Shown here in pieces: positions 21,759 through 58,645 of a stretch of DNA of 64,000 bases. The stretch covers positions 2,232,001-2,296,000 of the forward strand of contig NZ_AP019632.1 of the NCBI RefSeq assembly GCF_007035645.1, read 5' to 3'. The notes beneath the pieces are model-generated. The model was not told the DNA's origin, did no database searches, and saw only the letters and a program-made list of their open reading frames with translations. Both the position numbers and the translations under genes were made by a program. Origin of the DNA: Enterobacter asburiae (GTDB lineage: Bacteria; Pseudomonadota; Gammaproteobacteria; Enterobacterales; Enterobacteriaceae). Every line of letters starts with the position of its first letter. Position 1 is the stretch's first letter.

Positions 21759-21796
21759 CGGTTGAGGGTTCCCCACAAAATAATGCCTGCACGGAC

Positions 21797-22133
21797 GCCC
21801 CCCTCTCCCTTGAGGGAGAGGGCTGGGGTGAGGGGGAACATACGGCTCTGGTGGTCATTCCGTTCACTTTATGTTCCTTGCTATTCTTTAACGACATAAC
21901 CTGTGAACGTGCCAGGGTGGCTCAATCGCCACCACCCTGGCGACCCGGGCTCCCGGCGGTAAATCGCCGCTTCGCGGTGCCCTCAGCTTATTCCTTCAGG
22001 CTATCGGGTCGGGCATGAGCCTGCATCCCTGCAGGCCACGCCCTCTCGGCGCATCCCTGCGCCTCGCCCCGGCCTTATGGAAACGCTTCGGCGATTTACA
22101 GCCGGACCAGGGCATCGCTGTAAGTCTGTCATT
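21797..22133 (-). repeat. Dispersed structured repeat, copy A (shorter form)
   Basis: This 478-base gene-free stretch holds a long repeat that recurs inverted at 55654-56055. Read on the minus strand: an 11-bp stem (CGGCGATTTAC pairing with GTAAATCGCCG) encloses hairpins with arms GGCGCA/TGCGCC (22048-22063) and GCCTGCA/TGCAGGC (22019-22036), each with loop GGGA. A 10-bp hairpin follows (GCCAGGGTGG with CCACCCTGGC, 21910-21941), then a conserved linker and a terminal hairpin CCCTCTCCC/GGGAGAGGG (21801-21822). Relative to copy B an internal segment of roughly 90 bases is missing. It contains no plausible ORF. See findings. Confidence 0.85.
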
Positions 22134-22236
22134 ATTCTGAAGACAGTCTTATTGCTTCAGAATACACGTTTACAAAGGGGCCCCTCTCCGCTAAGAGGAA
22201 GATTCATTTTTTAATTTTCGTAATACGGAGCACCTG

Positions 22237-22773
22237 ATGGTCACCACACACGTTTTTATCGCGGTTAGTCTTGATGGCTACATCGCCCGACAGAATGACG
22301 ATATCGACTGGCTGCTGCAGCGCGACGATCCCACAGAAGATCATGGCTATGAGGCGTTCATCGCGGACAAAGAGTGGATCGTGATGGGCCGGGGTAGCTA
22401 TGAGAAGGTACTGACCTTTGACGCATGGCCTTATGAACGGCCCGTGCTGGTACTCTCCCGACAGCTGGGCGGTACGACCGTGCCGGAGGCGCTGAAGGGA
22501 AAAGTGCAGTTTTCATCCCGGACGCCAAAGGAGGTGCTGGACGATCTCGCTGCGCAGAACGTTCATCGGGTCTATCTCGATGGCGGACAGGTGATCCAGT
22601 CATTCCTGCGCGAAGGGCTGGTGGCCGATATGGTGATCACGACCGTTCCTGTCCTGCTCGGAGCGGGAAAACCGCTTTTCGGAACCCTTCCTCAGGATAT
22701 CGATTTAATTCTGGTATCCAGCCGCAGTTTCCCTTCGGGTCTGGTGCAGTCACATTATCGACTGAGGCCATAA
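22237..22773 (+). CDS. Dihydrofolate reductase-family protein (RibD C-terminal domain)
   Basis: Small NADPH-binding reductase-like protein of 178 residues of the RibD_C/DHFR superfamily (YwjB/YyaP type). Seen: N-terminal VFIAVSLDGYIARQNDDIDWL, WIVMGRGSYEKVLTF, VYLDGGQVIQSFLREGLVADMVITTVPVLLGAGKPLFG. Not the trimethoprim-target FolA. GGAG lies 6 bases before the ATG. The natural substrate is unknown. The gene stands alone between repeat copy A and a convergent small gene. Confidence 0.87.
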   Translation: MVTTHVFIAVSLDGYIARQNDDIDWLLQRDDPTEDHGYEAFIADKEWIVMGRGSYEKVLTFDAWPYERPVLVLSRQLGGTTVPEALKGKVQFSSRTPKEVLDDLAAQNVHRVYLDGGQVIQSFLREGLVADMVITTVPVLLGAGKPLFGTLPQDIDLILVSSRSFPSGLVQSHYRLRP

Positions 22774-22794
22774 CCCTATCGCGACGGCCTGCGC

Positions 22795-22820
22795 AAAAAA
22801 AAACCGCCAATAACTGGCGG
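22795..22820 (-). terminator. Rho-independent terminator for the gene at 22938-23300
   Basis: On the minus strand CCGCCA GTTAT TGGCGG is followed by a run of nine T. It ends the transcript of the 120-residue protein gene, leaving an unusually long (about 115 bases) 3' untranslated stretch. Confidence 0.8.
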
Positions 22821-22937
22821 TAAATGCTTGCATGGATAGATTTGTGTTTTGGTCTCTACGTCCCGACACTCCGTGGCCGGGCTGCGGATCCCTTACAACC
22901 TAACACCTGTTGTCTTAACGAACGCTAAACAACCTTA

Positions 22938-54627: not shown

Positions 54628-55551
54628 ATGGAAAAAAATGGTCTGTTCAGTCAGCGCATACGCTTGCGCCATTTGCATACATTTGTGGCCGTCGCTCAAC
54701 AGGGAACGCTGGGGCGTGCGGCTGAAACTCTCAACCTGAGCCAGCCTGCGCTCTCAAAAACCCTCAACGAGCTGGAACAGCTGACCGGTGCCCGTCTTTT
54801 TGACCGCGGCCGGCTGGGGGCGCAGCTTACCATTGTGGGCGAACAATTCCTCACGCACGCCGTGAAAGTGCTGGATGCGCTCAATACCGCAGGCCAGTCC
54901 CTGCACCGAAAAGAAGAGCAATCCAGTGAGGTGGTGCGCGTGGGCGCTCTGCCTACCGCGGCGCTGGGCATTCTTCCGCCCGTTATCGGCCAGTTCCACA
55001 AGCAGCAGCGGCATACCACGATTCAGGTCGCCACCATGAATAACACCATGCTGCTCGCGGGGCTGAAATCCGGCGAACTGGATCTCGGAATCGGCCGCAT
55101 GTCCGACCCTGAGCTGATGGGCGGTCTCAACTATGAACTGCTGTTCCTGGAGTCTCTGAAGCTGGTGGTTCGTCCCGATCACCCCCTGCTGCAGGACACG
55201 GTAACATTAAGCCGCGTGATGGAGTGGCCGGTAGTGGTCTGCCCAAAAGGGACCGTTCCCCGCCAGACCGCCGAAACCTTGCTGCAAATGCAGGGGTGTA
55301 CGCTGCCCTCAGGGTGTATCGAAACGCTATCGGCCTCGCTTTCACGGCAGCTTACGCTGGATTATGACTACGTCTGGTTCGTCCCCTCCGGTGCGGTGAA
55401 AGATGATTTACGTCAGGGAACGCTGATCGCCCTGCCGATTACCTCCCCCGGCCCCGGTGAACCTATCGGCATTTTGACCCGCGTAGACACGCCGCTTTCA
55501 ACGGGCGCGCAGACGCTGCTGAGCGCTATCCGTAAATCAATGCCGGTCTGA
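54628..55551 (+). CDS. LysR-family regulator, PcaQ-like
   Basis: LysR transcription factor of 307 residues. The head IRLRHLHTFVAVAQQGTLGRAAETLNLSQPALSKTLNELEQLTGARLFDRGRLGAQLT and the segment VRVGALPTAALGILPPVIGQFHKQQ are typical of the PcaQ/GbpR branch, which responds to protocatechuate-type intermediates or galactose. No pca genes are nearby. The next gene is a membrane PQQ dehydrogenase of the glucose/quinate/shikimate family, about 710 bases downstream beyond repeat copy B; quinate oxidation feeds protocatechuate, so regulation of that gene is a reasonable hypothesis. Confidence 0.85.
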   Translation: MEKNGLFSQRIRLRHLHTFVAVAQQGTLGRAAETLNLSQPALSKTLNELEQLTGARLFDRGRLGAQLTIVGEQFLTHAVKVLDALNTAGQSLHRKEEQSSEVVRVGALPTAALGILPPVIGQFHKQQRHTTIQVATMNNTMLLAGLKSGELDLGIGRMSDPELMGGLNYELLFLESLKLVVRPDHPLLQDTVTLSRVMEWPVVVCPKGTVPRQTAETLLQMQGCTLPSGCIETLSASLSRQLTLDYDYVWFVPSGAVKDDLRQGTLIALPITSPGPGEPIGILTRVDTPLSTGAQTLLSAIRKSMPV

Positions 55552-55575
55552 CAACTTTCGCCCTCCTCATCCTAA

Positions 55576-55598
55576 CCCTCTCCCCAACGGGGCGAGGG
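55576..55598. repeat. Short palindromic repeat after the LysR gene
   Basis: CCCTCTCCCC AAC GGGGCGAGGG with CCTCATCCTAA before it; a variant, with one mismatch, of the CCCTCTCCC hairpin family seen at 35576 and at the ends of both long repeats. Possibly the transcript end of the LysR gene. Confidence 0.65.
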
Positions 55599-55653
55599 TT
55601 CACCAGCCATTTTCCCACCCGAAGCGATAAATATTGCCTCAGGAAAATGAAGA

Positions 55654-56055
55654 ACTTACAGCGACGCTCTGGTCCGGCTGTAAATCGCCGAAGCGTTTCC
55701 GCAAGGCCGGGGCGAGGCGCAGGGATGCGCCGAGAGGGCGTGGCCTGCAGGGATGCAGGCTCATGCCCGACCCGATAGCCTGAAGGAATAAGCTGAGGAC
55801 AAAATTGCCGGGAGCAATTTTGGACAGCGCCTGCGCTGGCCCTGAAAGGGTGAGCCCCAGGGATGGGGCGAGCAATCCGCGAAGCGGCGATTTACCGCCG
55901 GGAGCCCGGGTTGCCAGGGCGGTGGCGATTGAGCCGCCCTGGCACGTTCACAGGCCATGTCGTTACAGAGTAGCAAGAAACATAAAGTGAACGGAATGAC
56001 CACCACAGCCGTATGTTCCCCCTCACCCCAGCCCTCTCCCTCAAGGGAGAGGGGC
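55654..56055 (+). repeat. Dispersed structured repeat, copy B (longer form)
   Basis: About 400 bases in the 712-base gap before the PQQ dehydrogenase; inverted relative to copy A and highly similar outside an extra internal segment of roughly 90 bases. Plus-strand hairpins: 55716-55731 (GGCGCA/TGCGCC), 55743-55760 (GCCTGCA/TGCAGGC) and 55854-55869 (GCCCCA/TGGGGC), all with loop GGGA and therefore all containing CAGGGATG. Also AAAATTGC/GCAATTTT around CGGGA (55801-55821), an 11-bp enclosing stem, the 10-bp stem GCCAGGGCGG/CCGCCCTGGC, and the terminal hairpin at 56032-56053. No ORF. The rest of the gap (56056-56263) is AT-rich and unremarkable. Confidence 0.85.
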
Positions 56056-56263
56056 CGTCTTGCGCGCTAATCAATTAATGCGAAATCATTCATTAACAAT
56101 TGCGTAAAACAATTTAACAGTTTTATCATAGCGACGAATTCACCAAATGGTTCGTAAATAATTTTACAACTCCGAATTCACCCGTATTAATCATTCTTCC
56201 CTCCGCATTTATTACCCAACTGGTACACACCCAGCACGACGGGGGGATCTTAAGGAGACAGAA

Positions 56264-58645
56264 ATGGCATTTGGCAGCGCGCCACGTGGGATACCGCGTA
56301 TCCTGCAGTGGCTCCTTGCCGGACTGATGTTGCTCATCGGTCTGGCAGTCGGCGGGCTGGGCTTTAAGCTCGTCACCGTAGGCGGAAGTGGATACTTCCT
56401 GATAATGGGCGTGGTGATGGTGATTGCCGCGATCCTGATTTTCCTCAATCGCAGCAGCGGGATCGTACTTTACGCCATCGCCTTTATTGCCTCGCTGTTC
56501 TGGGCGGTAGGCGATGCGGGCTGGGATTTCTGGCCGCTCTTCTCTCGCCTGTTTACCTTTGCCGTACTGGCCTTCCTCTGCGCCATCGTCTGGCCTTTCC
56601 TGCGCGCGGCAAACCACAGCGCCGCGAACAAGGCTCCCGCTTTTGGCGTCGCGGCCGTGCTCGCGGTGGCGCTGCTGGTCAGCCTGGGCTGGATGTTTAA
56701 GCCGCAGACCCTCGTGGCAGCGAACGAGCCCGTTCCGGTGAAACCCGTCGCCCCCGGCGAGCAGCAAAAGAACTGGGCGCACTGGGGCAATACCACCCAC
56801 GGCGACCGTTTTGCCGCGCTGGACCAGATTAACAAGCAAAACGTCCGCGATCTGAAAGTCGCGTGGGTTGCGCACACCGGCGATATTCCGCAGAGCAACG
56901 GCTCCGGCGCGGAAGATCAGAACACGCCATTGCAGATTGGCGACACGCTGTACGTCTGTACCCCGTACAGTAAAGTGCTGGCGCTGGACGTGGATTCCGG
57001 CAAAGAAAAATGGCGCTACGATTCCAAAGCCACGGCGCCTAACTGGCAGCGCTGCCGCGGTCTGGGCTATTTTGAAGACCATTCCAGCGTGACAACGTCA
57101 CAGGCAGAGACACAGCCTGCGGCATGCCCTCGCCGCCTGTTCCTGCCGACCACCGACGCCCGCCTGATTGCCATCAACGCGGATGACGGCAAGGTCTGCG
57201 AAGACTTCGGTGACCATGGCACCGTGGATCTGAGCGTCGGCATGGGCGAGATCAAGCCCGGGTATTATCAGCAGACCTCCACGCCGCTGGTCGCAGGCAA
57301 TGTTGTTGTCGTCGGCGGTCGCGTCGCGGATAACTACTCCACCGGCGAACCGCCGGGCGTGGTGCGCGCCTACGACGTTCACACCGGTAAACTGGCGTGG
57401 GCGTGGGATCCGGGTAATCCAAAACTGACCGGCCTGCCGCCGGAAGGCCAGACCTACACCCGCGGCACGCCGAACGTCTGGTCAGCAATGTCTTACGACG
57501 CTAAGCTGAACCTGATCTACCTGCCAACCGGCAACGCCACCCCGGACTTCTGGGCGGGCGAACGTACCGCGCTGGACGATAAGTACAGTTCCTCCATCGT
57601 CGCCGTCGACGCGACCACCGGTCAGGTGCGCTGGCATTTCCAGACGACCCACCACGACCTGTGGGACTTTGACCTGCCTTCCCAGCCGCTGCTGTACGAT
57701 CTGCCCGACGGTAAGGGCGGCACCACGCCCGTGCTGGTGCAGACCAGCAAGCAGGGCATGATCTTCATGCTTAACCGCGAAACCGGCAAGCCGGTGGCGA
57801 AGGTAGAAGAACGTCCCGTTCCGGCGGGTAACGTTGAGGGTGAACGCTACTCTCCGACCCAGCCGTATTCCGTGGGCATGCCGATGATTGGCAACCAGAC
57901 GCTGACCGAATCCGACATGTGGGGGGCGACGCCTGTCGACCTGCTGCTGTGCCGCATTCAGTTTAAAGAGATGCGTCATCAGGGCGTCTTCACTCCGCCG
58001 GGTCTCGACCGTTCCCTGCAGTTCCCTGGCTCACTCGGCGGGATGAACTGGGGCAGCGTCTCCGTTGACCCGAACAACAGCCTGATGTTCGTCAACGATA
58101 TGCGCCTGGGCCTGGCAAACTACATGGTGCCGCGCGCTAACGTGGCGAAAAACGCCAGCGGCATCGAGATGGGCATCGTACCGATGGACGGGACGCCGTT
58201 CGGCGCGATGCGCGAACGCTTCCTGTCGCCGCTGGGCATTCCGTGCCAGAAGCCGCCGTTTGGCACCATGTCGGCCGTTGACCTGAAAACCGGCAAGCTG
58301 GTGTGGCAGGTCCCTGTCGGCACGGTGGAAGATACCGGCCCGCTGGGCATTCGTATGCACATGCCAATCCCAATCGGCATGCCGACGCTGGGCGCATCGC
58401 TCTCTACCCAGTCCGGCCTGCTGTTCTTCGCCGGCACGCAGGATTTCTACCTGCGCGCGTTTGATACCGCCACCGGGAAAGAGATCTGGAAAGACCGTCT
58501 GCCGGTCGGCAGCCAGTCCGGCCCGATGACCTACGTGTCGCCGAAAACCGGTAAGCAGTATATCATCATCAACGCCGGGGGCGCCCGACAGTCACCGGAT
58601 CGCGGGGATTACGTTATCGCGTACGCGTTACCCGATAAGCAATAA
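56264..58645 (+). CDS. Membrane-bound PQQ-dependent glucose/quinate/shikimate-type dehydrogenase
   Basis: 793 residues: five N-terminal TM segments (about 1-140) followed by a periplasmic eight-bladed quinoprotein propeller. Typical blocks: WAHWGNTTHGDRFAALDQINKQNVRDLKVAWV, CPRRLFLPTTDARLIAINADDGKVCEDFG, QTTHHDLWDFDLPSQPLLYDL, VFTPPGLDRSLQFPGSLGGMNWGSVSVDP. Electrons go directly to ubiquinone. Resembles E. coli Gcd but is clearly distinct, so substrate may be glucose, quinate, shikimate or another polyol. No PQQ synthesis genes are in the window; E. coli-like hosts need external PQQ, many Enterobacter do not. Confidence 0.9.
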   Translation: MAFGSAPRGIPRILQWLLAGLMLLIGLAVGGLGFKLVTVGGSGYFLIMGVVMVIAAILIFLNRSSGIVLYAIAFIASLFWAVGDAGWDFWPLFSRLFTFAVLAFLCAIVWPFLRAANHSAANKAPAFGVAAVLAVALLVSLGWMFKPQTLVAANEPVPVKPVAPGEQQKNWAHWGNTTHGDRFAALDQINKQNVRDLKVAWVAHTGDIPQSNGSGAEDQNTPLQIGDTLYVCTPYSKVLALDVDSGKEKWRYDSKATAPNWQRCRGLGYFEDHSSVTTSQAETQPAACPRRLFLPTTDARLIAINADDGKVCEDFGDHGTVDLSVGMGEIKPGYYQQTSTPLVAGNVVVVGGRVADNYSTGEPPGVVRAYDVHTGKLAWAWDPGNPKLTGLPPEGQTYTRGTPNVWSAMSYDAKLNLIYLPTGNATPDFWAGERTALDDKYSSSIVAVDATTGQVRWHFQTTHHDLWDFDLPSQPLLYDLPDGKGGTTPVLVQTSKQGMIFMLNRETGKPVAKVEERPVPAGNVEGERYSPTQPYSVGMPMIGNQTLTESDMWGATPVDLLLCRIQFKEMRHQGVFTPPGLDRSLQFPGSLGGMNWGSVSVDPNNSLMFVNDMRLGLANYMVPRANVAKNASGIEMGIVPMDGTPFGAMRERFLSPLGIPCQKPPFGTMSAVDLKTGKLVWQVPVGTVEDTGPLGIRMHMPIPIGMPTLGASLSTQSGLLFFAGTQDFYLRAFDTATGKEIWKDRLPVGSQSGPMTYVSPKTGKQYIIINAGGARQSPDRGDYVIAYALPDKQ

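Follow-up and report, generated by a model that had tools for sequence, protein, structure and literature searches.

The segment at 55.65–56.0 kb of the window (the whole stretch of 64 000 nucleotides that was analysed) is, judged by sequence comparison, a long copy, truncated in part, of an RNA element of the TRIP1 family that is dispersed and borne by transposons. The wider reading, to which slightly better than even weight was given, is that of a transposon-borne RNA of the TRIP1/TwoAYGGAY kind with a covarying fold and ANGGA loops, which would bind CsrA when it is read through. The element is probably a mobile CsrA-binding RNA module; binding of CsrA by its RNA is rated probable, and titration of CsrA only possible, because no promoter, terminator or sense bias was found for the GGA strand.

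The octamer CAGGGATG is present on the + strand at 55720–55727, 55748–55755 and 55858–55865, each time in its own hairpin with an unrelated stem, and the three identical-loop hairpins described in the first-pass annotation were thus recovered. Hairpin 1 (GGCGC-AGGGAU-GCGCC, 55716–55731, +), hairpin 2 (GGCCUGC-AGGGAU-GCAGGCU, 55742–55761, +) and hairpin 3 (GCCCC-AGGGAU-GGGGC, 55854–55869, +) form in the minimum-energy fold, in which their GGGA is unpaired at a probability of 0.93–1.0; the loop A is paired with the loop U by ViennaRNA in the window copy. The distance from GGA to GGA between hairpins 1 and 2 is 28 nt. ANGGA in a six-base hairpin loop closed by C-G, the form of a CsrA site according to the portions available of PMC7652899 and PMC9928087, is found in the window element. 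Two further GGGA hairpins had been proposed. The first is real (cassette hairpin AAAAUUGC-CGGGA-GCAAUUUU, 55801–55821, +) and shows GGA, but in a five-base loop without the A of ANGGA two bases 5′; the second, GGGA at 55900–55903, lies in no hairpin loop, its first two bases being paired with 55675 and 55674 and its last two falling in an internal loop (unpaired at 0.48 and 0.82).

The RNA core, a long TRIP1-type copy of about 344 nt, extends over 55654–55997 (+; profile match L001 1555–1898), and its start coincides with the element start that had been assigned earlier; the profile behind this boundary was trimmed by hand, and likeness to other copies extends further left. A closing helix is formed by 55674–55685 (+) and 55890–55901 (+) as partners in the minimum-energy fold, the 3′ arm including the first half of the GGGA at 55900–55903; in the consensus (helix 1), 95.9% of its cells are paired. 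A GC-rich stem-loop (GCCAGGGCGG...CCGCCCTGGC, 55913–55943, +) follows in the fold, with both arms changed in other aligned copies. The alignment of copies further gave a 3′ stem (55945–55993, +; CGTTCAC at 55945–55951 with GTGAACG at 55987–55993), both arms of which are replaced in E. coli TRIP1a (GCGCTCC/GGAGCGC). A hairpin cassette of 75 nt (55802–55876, +), to which hairpin 3 belongs, is inserted in the core.

The arrangement was compared with shuffled sequence. In the 64-kb window CAGGGATG occurs nine times against a shuffle mean of 1.86, and 0/100 shuffles reached nine; three ANGGAN hairpins with stems of at least 5 bp within 150 nt of the + strand were obtained in 0/100 Markov shuffles of the window. 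The + strand of the segment folds with z = −5.3 (0/100 shuffles equal it), and the − strand also folds well (z = −6.0). Genome-wide, 150 octamers were counted in the own genome (G000) against 17 for the pattern read backwards, a control that disagrees with the approximately 139 octamers expected from dinucleotide shuffles of the window.

A covariance model (R1) was built from 22 copies, and 77 sources were then searched with it, which gave 126 matches, 110 of them distinct (alignment A2); the sources for A2 included 19 of the R1 training loci and, in the form of the second window copy, one more. In the window element the R1 match covers 55682–55820 (128.6 bits), and the 3′ arm of the match falls in the insert. 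Among the 110 distinct copies 35 of the 39 model pairs are changed on both sides, with 611 doubly changed cells against a shuffle mean of 154.5, and 95.1% of the cells pair against 31–42% when the partner is slid; these pair counts lean towards the model because A2 was fitted to R1. Alignment without structure (A1) gave 13 of 39 pairs changed on both sides. As far as aligned sequences can tell, the fold of the element is held by covariation.

The loops were examined in subfamily A, defined as A2 rows ranked at 86 bits or more (88 distinct copies), by a search limited to six-base loops for hairpin 1 and giving GGA a bonus for hairpin 2. Hairpin 1 with a six-base loop is present in 86 of the 88 copies and keeps A-N-GGA in 85 of these 86 loops over 18 stem pairs, which supports the earlier proposal of selection on the loop. 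N is G in 51, T in 32, C in one and A in one (G or T in 83), and the entropies of A, N, G, G, A and the sixth base are 0, 1.12, 0, 0.09, 0 and 0.87 bits. A U is frequently missing from the sixth position, so what is conserved seems to be a loop of six bases and not GGGA closed by A-U. GGGA loops had been expected to persist over varying stems; the covariance-model survey bore this out for hairpin-1 ANGGA loops, which are kept while stems vary, and not for a constant GGGA, as N varies. The conserved loop supported by the alignment is accordingly ANGGA, sharper than the GGGA of the first-pass annotation and a motif that has been reported for CsrA/Rsm proteins in the accessible parts of PMC7652899 and PMC9928087. 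Outside hairpin 1 the constraint is looser. ANGGA is found in hairpin 2 in 72 of 88 copies, so that loops varying as freely as stems, which had been named as the observation that would speak against selection, are absent from hairpin 1 and partly present elsewhere: 16 of 88 hairpin-2 loops are not ANGGA, ANGGA is often lost in the partner halves of paired elements, and some cassettes are without any GGA. The stem of hairpin 1 has five contiguous pairs in the window and seven in many other copies; hairpin 2 has two contiguous pairs in 42 of 88 copies and none in five.

The strand on which the structure acts was assessed from wobble pairs in 73 distinct copies; 15 of the 88, all long copies, and the pseudo-pair of loop A and sixth base were left out. 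The cells comprised 2650 Watson–Crick, 41 G-U, 6 A-C and 70 others; they share ancestry and are not independent, and by column G-U stands to A-C as 12 to 3. Tolerance of G-U is expected only where the displayed strand is the one that folds; the strand that shows GGA thus probably works as RNA, and the asymmetry (41 to 6) supports the plus strand, as had been supposed. A first wobble count (47 G-U against 33 A-C) was dropped, as it counted the loop pseudo-pair and forced the 3′ arm of the long copies into the insert. A-G was met at two helix positions in 13 and 11 of 73 cells, which suggests sheared G-A pairs; tandem G-A is noted for TwoAYGGAY in the portion available of PMC4333381.

Further copies were identified at several levels. 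In the own genome 51 matches of the segment were obtained (40 of 108 candidates scored): 22 long, 28 short to the palindrome and one short to the left part. The 28 short matches are dispersed CCCTCACCC...CCCTCTCCC palindromes, of a kind that both receives insertions and occurs within the MITE itself. Thirteen copies in this genome match the core profile, and their flanking reading frames were determined; dispersed intergenic copies at several loci, as is characteristic of TRIP1, are thus found in the own genome. Thirteen other places were aligned with the window copy, giving three long copies (including that of the window), eight without the 75 nt of 55802–55876 and three partial ones. A second, short copy in the window, overlooked in the first reading, was located on the − strand at 21762–22187 through R1 and end matches (hairpin 1 at 22048–22063, hairpin 2 at 22019–22037); it has a MITE-like right end and is flanked on both sides by TTAGCGG. 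A match to the Hfq-binding sRNA STnc560 (22756–22924, −, 63.4 bits) lies about 570 bp from it.

A DNA query of the element gave matches in 63 of 99 relatives; the whole-segment matches, in relatives as in E. coli, include a common palindrome, and the half-queries used for E. coli are without it. The two-hairpin half (55670–55810) matches in 5343 of 5426 E. coli genomes, mostly at 60–80% identity, the 3′ part (55876–56010) in 4428 genomes, and at least 80% of the whole query is covered at one place in 17. With R1 (E ≤ 1e-4), matches were found in 54 of 198 family genomes and 44 of 154 genera, the sample of 198 being Enterobacteriaceae by inference. The plasmid records with element matches include chromosome-sized ones (4.9 Mb, for example NZ_CP134663.1), and the plasmid counts of the element are inflated because some records filed as plasmids are of this size. 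The TRIP1 repeats of E. coli reportedly go back to Rudd in 1999. Those E. coli matches that were opened lie between yegH and asmA, lysO and aqpZ, alx and sstT, proX and an MFS gene, and tauA and mmuM. The loci lysO(ybjE)–aqpZ and alx–sstT are TRIP1a and TRIP1d (Li et al. 2024, PMC10888264, in the part available), and on this ground the window element was assigned to the TRIP1 family. TRIP1a and TRIP1d can be aligned with the window family over the whole core, in agreement with homology to TRIP1; the R1 scores of the E. coli loci L073 and L074 are 153.0 and 151.5 bits (the copies used to train R1 included L073 and a sister of L074). E. coli MG1655 carries other sequence at alx–sstT and proX–ygaY, so no clean insertion sites could be defined there. 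In one E. coli strain a hypothetical protein (WP_001441093.1), probably not a real gene, is annotated over the TRIP1d copy (L077 1492–1794).

In the genus of the window complete copies of the element are carried by MITEs. The TIR word CTGAGGGATCCCCA occurs in 24 of 40 genus genomes, and the reversed pattern gave 0 matches. Thirty loci around it include 19 with a TRIP1 match; the other 11 are two IS copies, a 597-bp unit without TRIP1 (L244) and eight others that have no TRIP1 match and no partner end close by (L230, L239, L240, L247, L249, L250, L254, L255). These eight loci and L244 are perhaps other MITEs of the same transposase. Nine complete TRIP1 units in the genus measure 424–428 bp and are bounded by inverted CTGAGGGATCCCCA (up to two mismatches) in 14-bp ends. 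The 9-mers flanking these units are identical in four (one border set by hand) and agree in 8 of 9 bases in three more, and they are identical in both IS copies. For 11 units including the two IS copies the mean identity was 8.3/9 within against 6.0 between units, and 0/20000 permutations were as high; L244, with inverted flanks, was omitted from this test, and the left border of L231 was shifted by one base by hand. By eye, eight of the nine units sit in the loops of CCCTCTCCC...GGGAGAGGG palindromes.

The MITE ends recur on an element of 1279 bp in two relatives, G038 and G018 (L228 236–1514; L252 1501–2779); this element encodes a DDE transposase of 391 aa (PF01609; NCBIfam NF033591, IS4 family). 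At E ≤ 1e-60 this transposase was found with at least 94% identity in 2 of 60 genus genomes and with 46–49% in two more; there are five matches in G038, seven in G018 and none in the own genome. The same MITE ends occur on copies in a genome of another genus (G286). The family thus shows the TIRs in common with an autonomous IS and the target-site duplication of IS4/IS10-type MITEs. The window copy at 55.6 kb lacks the right TIR and has a degenerate left one. It spans from a host palindrome that forms its left border (55565–55598, placed by comparison with relatives) to the internal palindrome that the element itself carries near the right end of the MITE (CCCTC...GGGAGAGGGG, 56020–56054), the right end beyond being lost. 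At this site five relatives have a single palindrome without the element, and a sixth (G003) has a short copy.

Transcription of the element would have to come from its neighbours, and read-through is possible. A simple consensus scan of 55400–56300 gave 0 promoter-like sites (+) and 0 terminator-like sites. Nor was a promoter-like site seen in the complete MITE L236, the sole terminator-like hit of which (1948–1967) is beyond the MITE; the paired copy L144 has one promoter-like hit (715–743), which is not between the halves. Upstream of the 55.6-kb element a 307-aa frame in the same orientation (LysR-type by eye) points into it. Among 61 independent single loci 13 are sense, 10 antisense, 37 between converging genes and one between diverging genes, so that in tandem gene contexts there is no sense bias (13 to 10, p = 0.68); ten mixed clusters were given their commonest label, and reading frames were called by script, not taken from annotation. 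An apparent sense bias (52/66) was rejected as a product of converging genes, which disappeared in the joint count.

The first-pass annotation had proposed that a transcript of the segment could titrate CsrA in the manner of CsrB and CsrC. A dedicated sRNA of this type at the 55.6-kb locus is very improbable. It would account for three exact CAGGGATG hairpins in 150 nt, and read-through from the co-oriented upstream gene would be available to it; against this, the locus is an insertion, with an empty site in five relatives and a short copy in a sixth, no + strand promoter-like or terminator-like site and no sense bias were seen, and the locus offers only three good ANGGA sites, compared with the 22 GGA that CsrB carries according to the accessible part of PMC7652899. 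No Rfam family reached its gathering score in the element, and neither CsrB nor CsrC was matched by its covariance model at E ≤ 1 in 55540–56080. The stand-alone sRNA was rejected as the main reading on account of the missing Rfam match and the empty sites.

That the element is a neutral mobile repeat, whose hairpins would be relics or DNA-level transposition signals and whose 3′-end positions would reflect insertion tolerance, is improbable, less so than the dedicated sRNA. The MITE anatomy, the insertion into palindromes, the good folding of both strands and the preference for sites between converging genes (37 of 61, with one between diverging genes) are what such a repeat would show. Neither the wobble asymmetry nor the doubly changed cells would be expected for neutral DNA or for a strand-symmetric structure, and the MITE ends lie outside the RNA core; a hairpin acting as DNA only is made unlikely by the same asymmetry. 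The preferred reading is the transposon-borne RNA with CsrA-type loops.

In other genomes the RNA core stands in different surroundings, and no IS4-type ends were seen in E. coli TRIP1 or in the G250 copies. Among 35 distinct neighbours less than 500 bp apart, 26 are head-to-head, four tail-to-tail and five in tandem. The head-to-head pairs consist of two related halves with gaps of 56–138 bp in 24 of 26, and the four tail-to-tail neighbours lie between the pairs of arrays. Arrays of head-to-head TRIP1-like pairs or of single copies were observed at L143, L129 and L142, regularly spaced at about 640, 656 and 446 bp. The Rfam model of TwoAYGGAY (RF01731) was matched over its whole length by L073, L074, L076 and L144 with 26.6–35.7 bits; its gathering score of 43 was reached by none of the TRIP1-type loci tested, and no match was obtained in L011, L016 and L236 at E ≤ 5 or in either window copy at E ≤ 1. 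When L144 and L073 were aligned to this model, two adjacent hairpins inside an outer helix, as in TwoAYGGAY, were found in register; many TRIP1-type loops are AGGGAY rather than AYGGAY. Opposite-strand RF01731 matches less than 500 bp apart are head-to-head in nine of nine among the matches listed. At phylum level RF01731 (E ≤ 1e-4) was found in 31 of 398 genomes, every one of them listed within the same class or at a closer rank. In distant Gammaproteobacteria (G561, G451, G243, G734, G831, G798, G901) TwoAYGGAY occurs in several copies and in head-to-head pairs about 160–325 bp apart.

The 75-nt cassette is absent from eight short two-sided copies; ERIC elements and tandem arrays contain it as well. 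At E ≤ 0.001 it was detected in 59 of 198 family genomes and 43 of 154 genera, some matches being partial. Among 32 cassette loci 11 were flagged TRIP1-like and five ERIC (L275, L276, L301, L304, L305); among the remaining 16 are cassettes next to further GGA hairpins and some in head-to-tail arrays (L294, L296). The third hairpin shows ANGGA in 27 of the 32 loci by script and in two more by eye. Over 55790–55883 the cassette resembles RF02902 AaHKsRNA22 (31.3 bits, E 5.4e-4; gathering score 39.8). Internal insertions are known from ERIC elements. A word-based test for the ERIC core did not flag the long TRIP1 copy L277, which has only the cassette in common with ERIC. The cassette is also matched, at 75.6% in the matches listed, by 173 plasmid records (168 from Salmonella), of which 143 were typed conjugative.

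The head-to-head arrangement of 26 of the 35 neighbours is not predicted by CsrA binding, and it lends some weight to a rival in which the paired GGA hairpins are recognised by another factor (an RNA chaperone, a processing enzyme, the ribosome or a factor for spread) and in which the resemblance to CsrA sites would have arisen by convergence on a stable GGA loop. Such a factor would be compatible with a fold and loop conserved without known function and with an RNA core common to carriers whose ends differ (IS4-type MITEs, E. coli TRIP1 and G250 copies, head-to-head pairs). Against this rival, the loop of six bases and its variable N, in most cases G or T, agree with reported CsrA/Rsm sites, and recognition by a factor other than CsrA is held to be rather unlikely.

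For CsrA itself the comparison is with published binding data, each source being available in part. RsmE bound effectively only ATGGA and AGGGA, on ssDNA oligonucleotides (PMC9928087); 44 of 55 RNAs from SELEX had six-base loops with AC/GU pairing, and in most SELEX hairpins no more than four pairs were contiguous (PMC7652899). The hairpin-1 loops are constrained at the positions that CsrA requires and vary where it tolerates variation (PMC7652899, PMC9928087), and the stems of the element are strong where SELEX favoured short ones (PMC7652899). All 15 RF01731-positive class genomes have CsrA, against 234 of 274 overall, a co-occurrence that is not significant in this sample (chance 0.088). 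In the available main text of the E. coli CsrA CLIP-seq paper none of aqpZ, ybjE, dusC and putP is named. In the mechanism proposed for the CsrA reading, RNA of the element would be read through from neighbouring genes and would then fold, and a CsrA dimer could bind the two neighbouring ANGGA hairpins at their window spacing of 28 nt. A weaker extension is that many copies jointly might act as a mobile CsrA-binding sink, or mark the 3′ ends of mRNAs, and not as a dedicated CsrB/C-like sRNA.

TRIP1 and TwoAYGGAY have been published, as has the proposal of 2014 that CsrA binds TwoAYGGAY (PMC4333381, in the part available). In the open-access literature searched no link of TRIP1 to TwoAYGGAY or CsrA, no MITE/IS4 anatomy and no strand test of TRIP1 was found. 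TRIP1 is stated to occur in 96% of 6725 E. coli genomes, and its role is called unclear in the accessible part of PMC10888264. If TRIP1 RNA binds CsrA, a global regulator would have uncounted, mobile and strain-variable binding partners, and the role of these intergenic repeats would reduce to a simple binding assay. Loops that seem to keep the CsrA signal on changing stems make a little-studied repeat family testable as a mobile CsrA decoy. Plasmid-borne Rsm proteins that manipulate their hosts are known (PMC9928087, portion available), and mobile elements carrying the RNA ligand would mirror them. In a bolder proposal, which is considered unlikely as it stands, TRIP1, the ERIC hairpin cassette and dispersed TwoAYGGAY would all be carriers of one mobile CsrA-binding ANGGA hairpin that hops between elements and by transposition, the copies jointly forming a CsrA sponge, transposable and different from genome to genome, by which the Csr system would be rewired or buffered.

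Among known systems, CsrB, CsrC and RsmX/Y/Z display GGA in hairpin loops as the element does; they are single genes with their own promoters (csrB and csrC promoters are mentioned in the accessible part of PMC7652899), whereas the element is inserted at dispersed places and offers two or three sites. The consensus of RF02902 differs from the cassette in having no GGA in the third hairpin. The cassette in ERIC elements is homologous to the 75-nt insert of the window, while the ERIC core is unrelated. With IS10-like MITEs of the IS4 family the window family has in common the TIR CTGAGGGATCCCCA, the 9-bp flank repeats and an IS4 transposase partner; the element differs in its conserved, structured RNA cargo and in its position in the loops of CCCTCTCCC-type palindromes. 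The end CTGAGGGATCCCCA presumably resembles that of IS10. TwoAYGGAY (RF01731, clan CL00106) is like TRIP1 in having two neighbouring AYGGAY-type hairpins inside an outer helix, and it too is multi-copy (at least two in 11 of 15 and 24 of 31 positive genomes) and head-to-head paired; its stems and 3′ domain are different from those of the TRIP1-type loci. Closest is TRIP1 of E. coli, which is like the window family in core sequence, fold, intergenic sites, few copies and strong predicted RNA folding; the available part of PMC10888264 describes neither MITE ends nor GGA loops and contains CsrA 0 times, and the copies in the genus of the window differ from TRIP1 in being carried in IS4-type MITEs, the window copy in addition by its 75-nt cassette.
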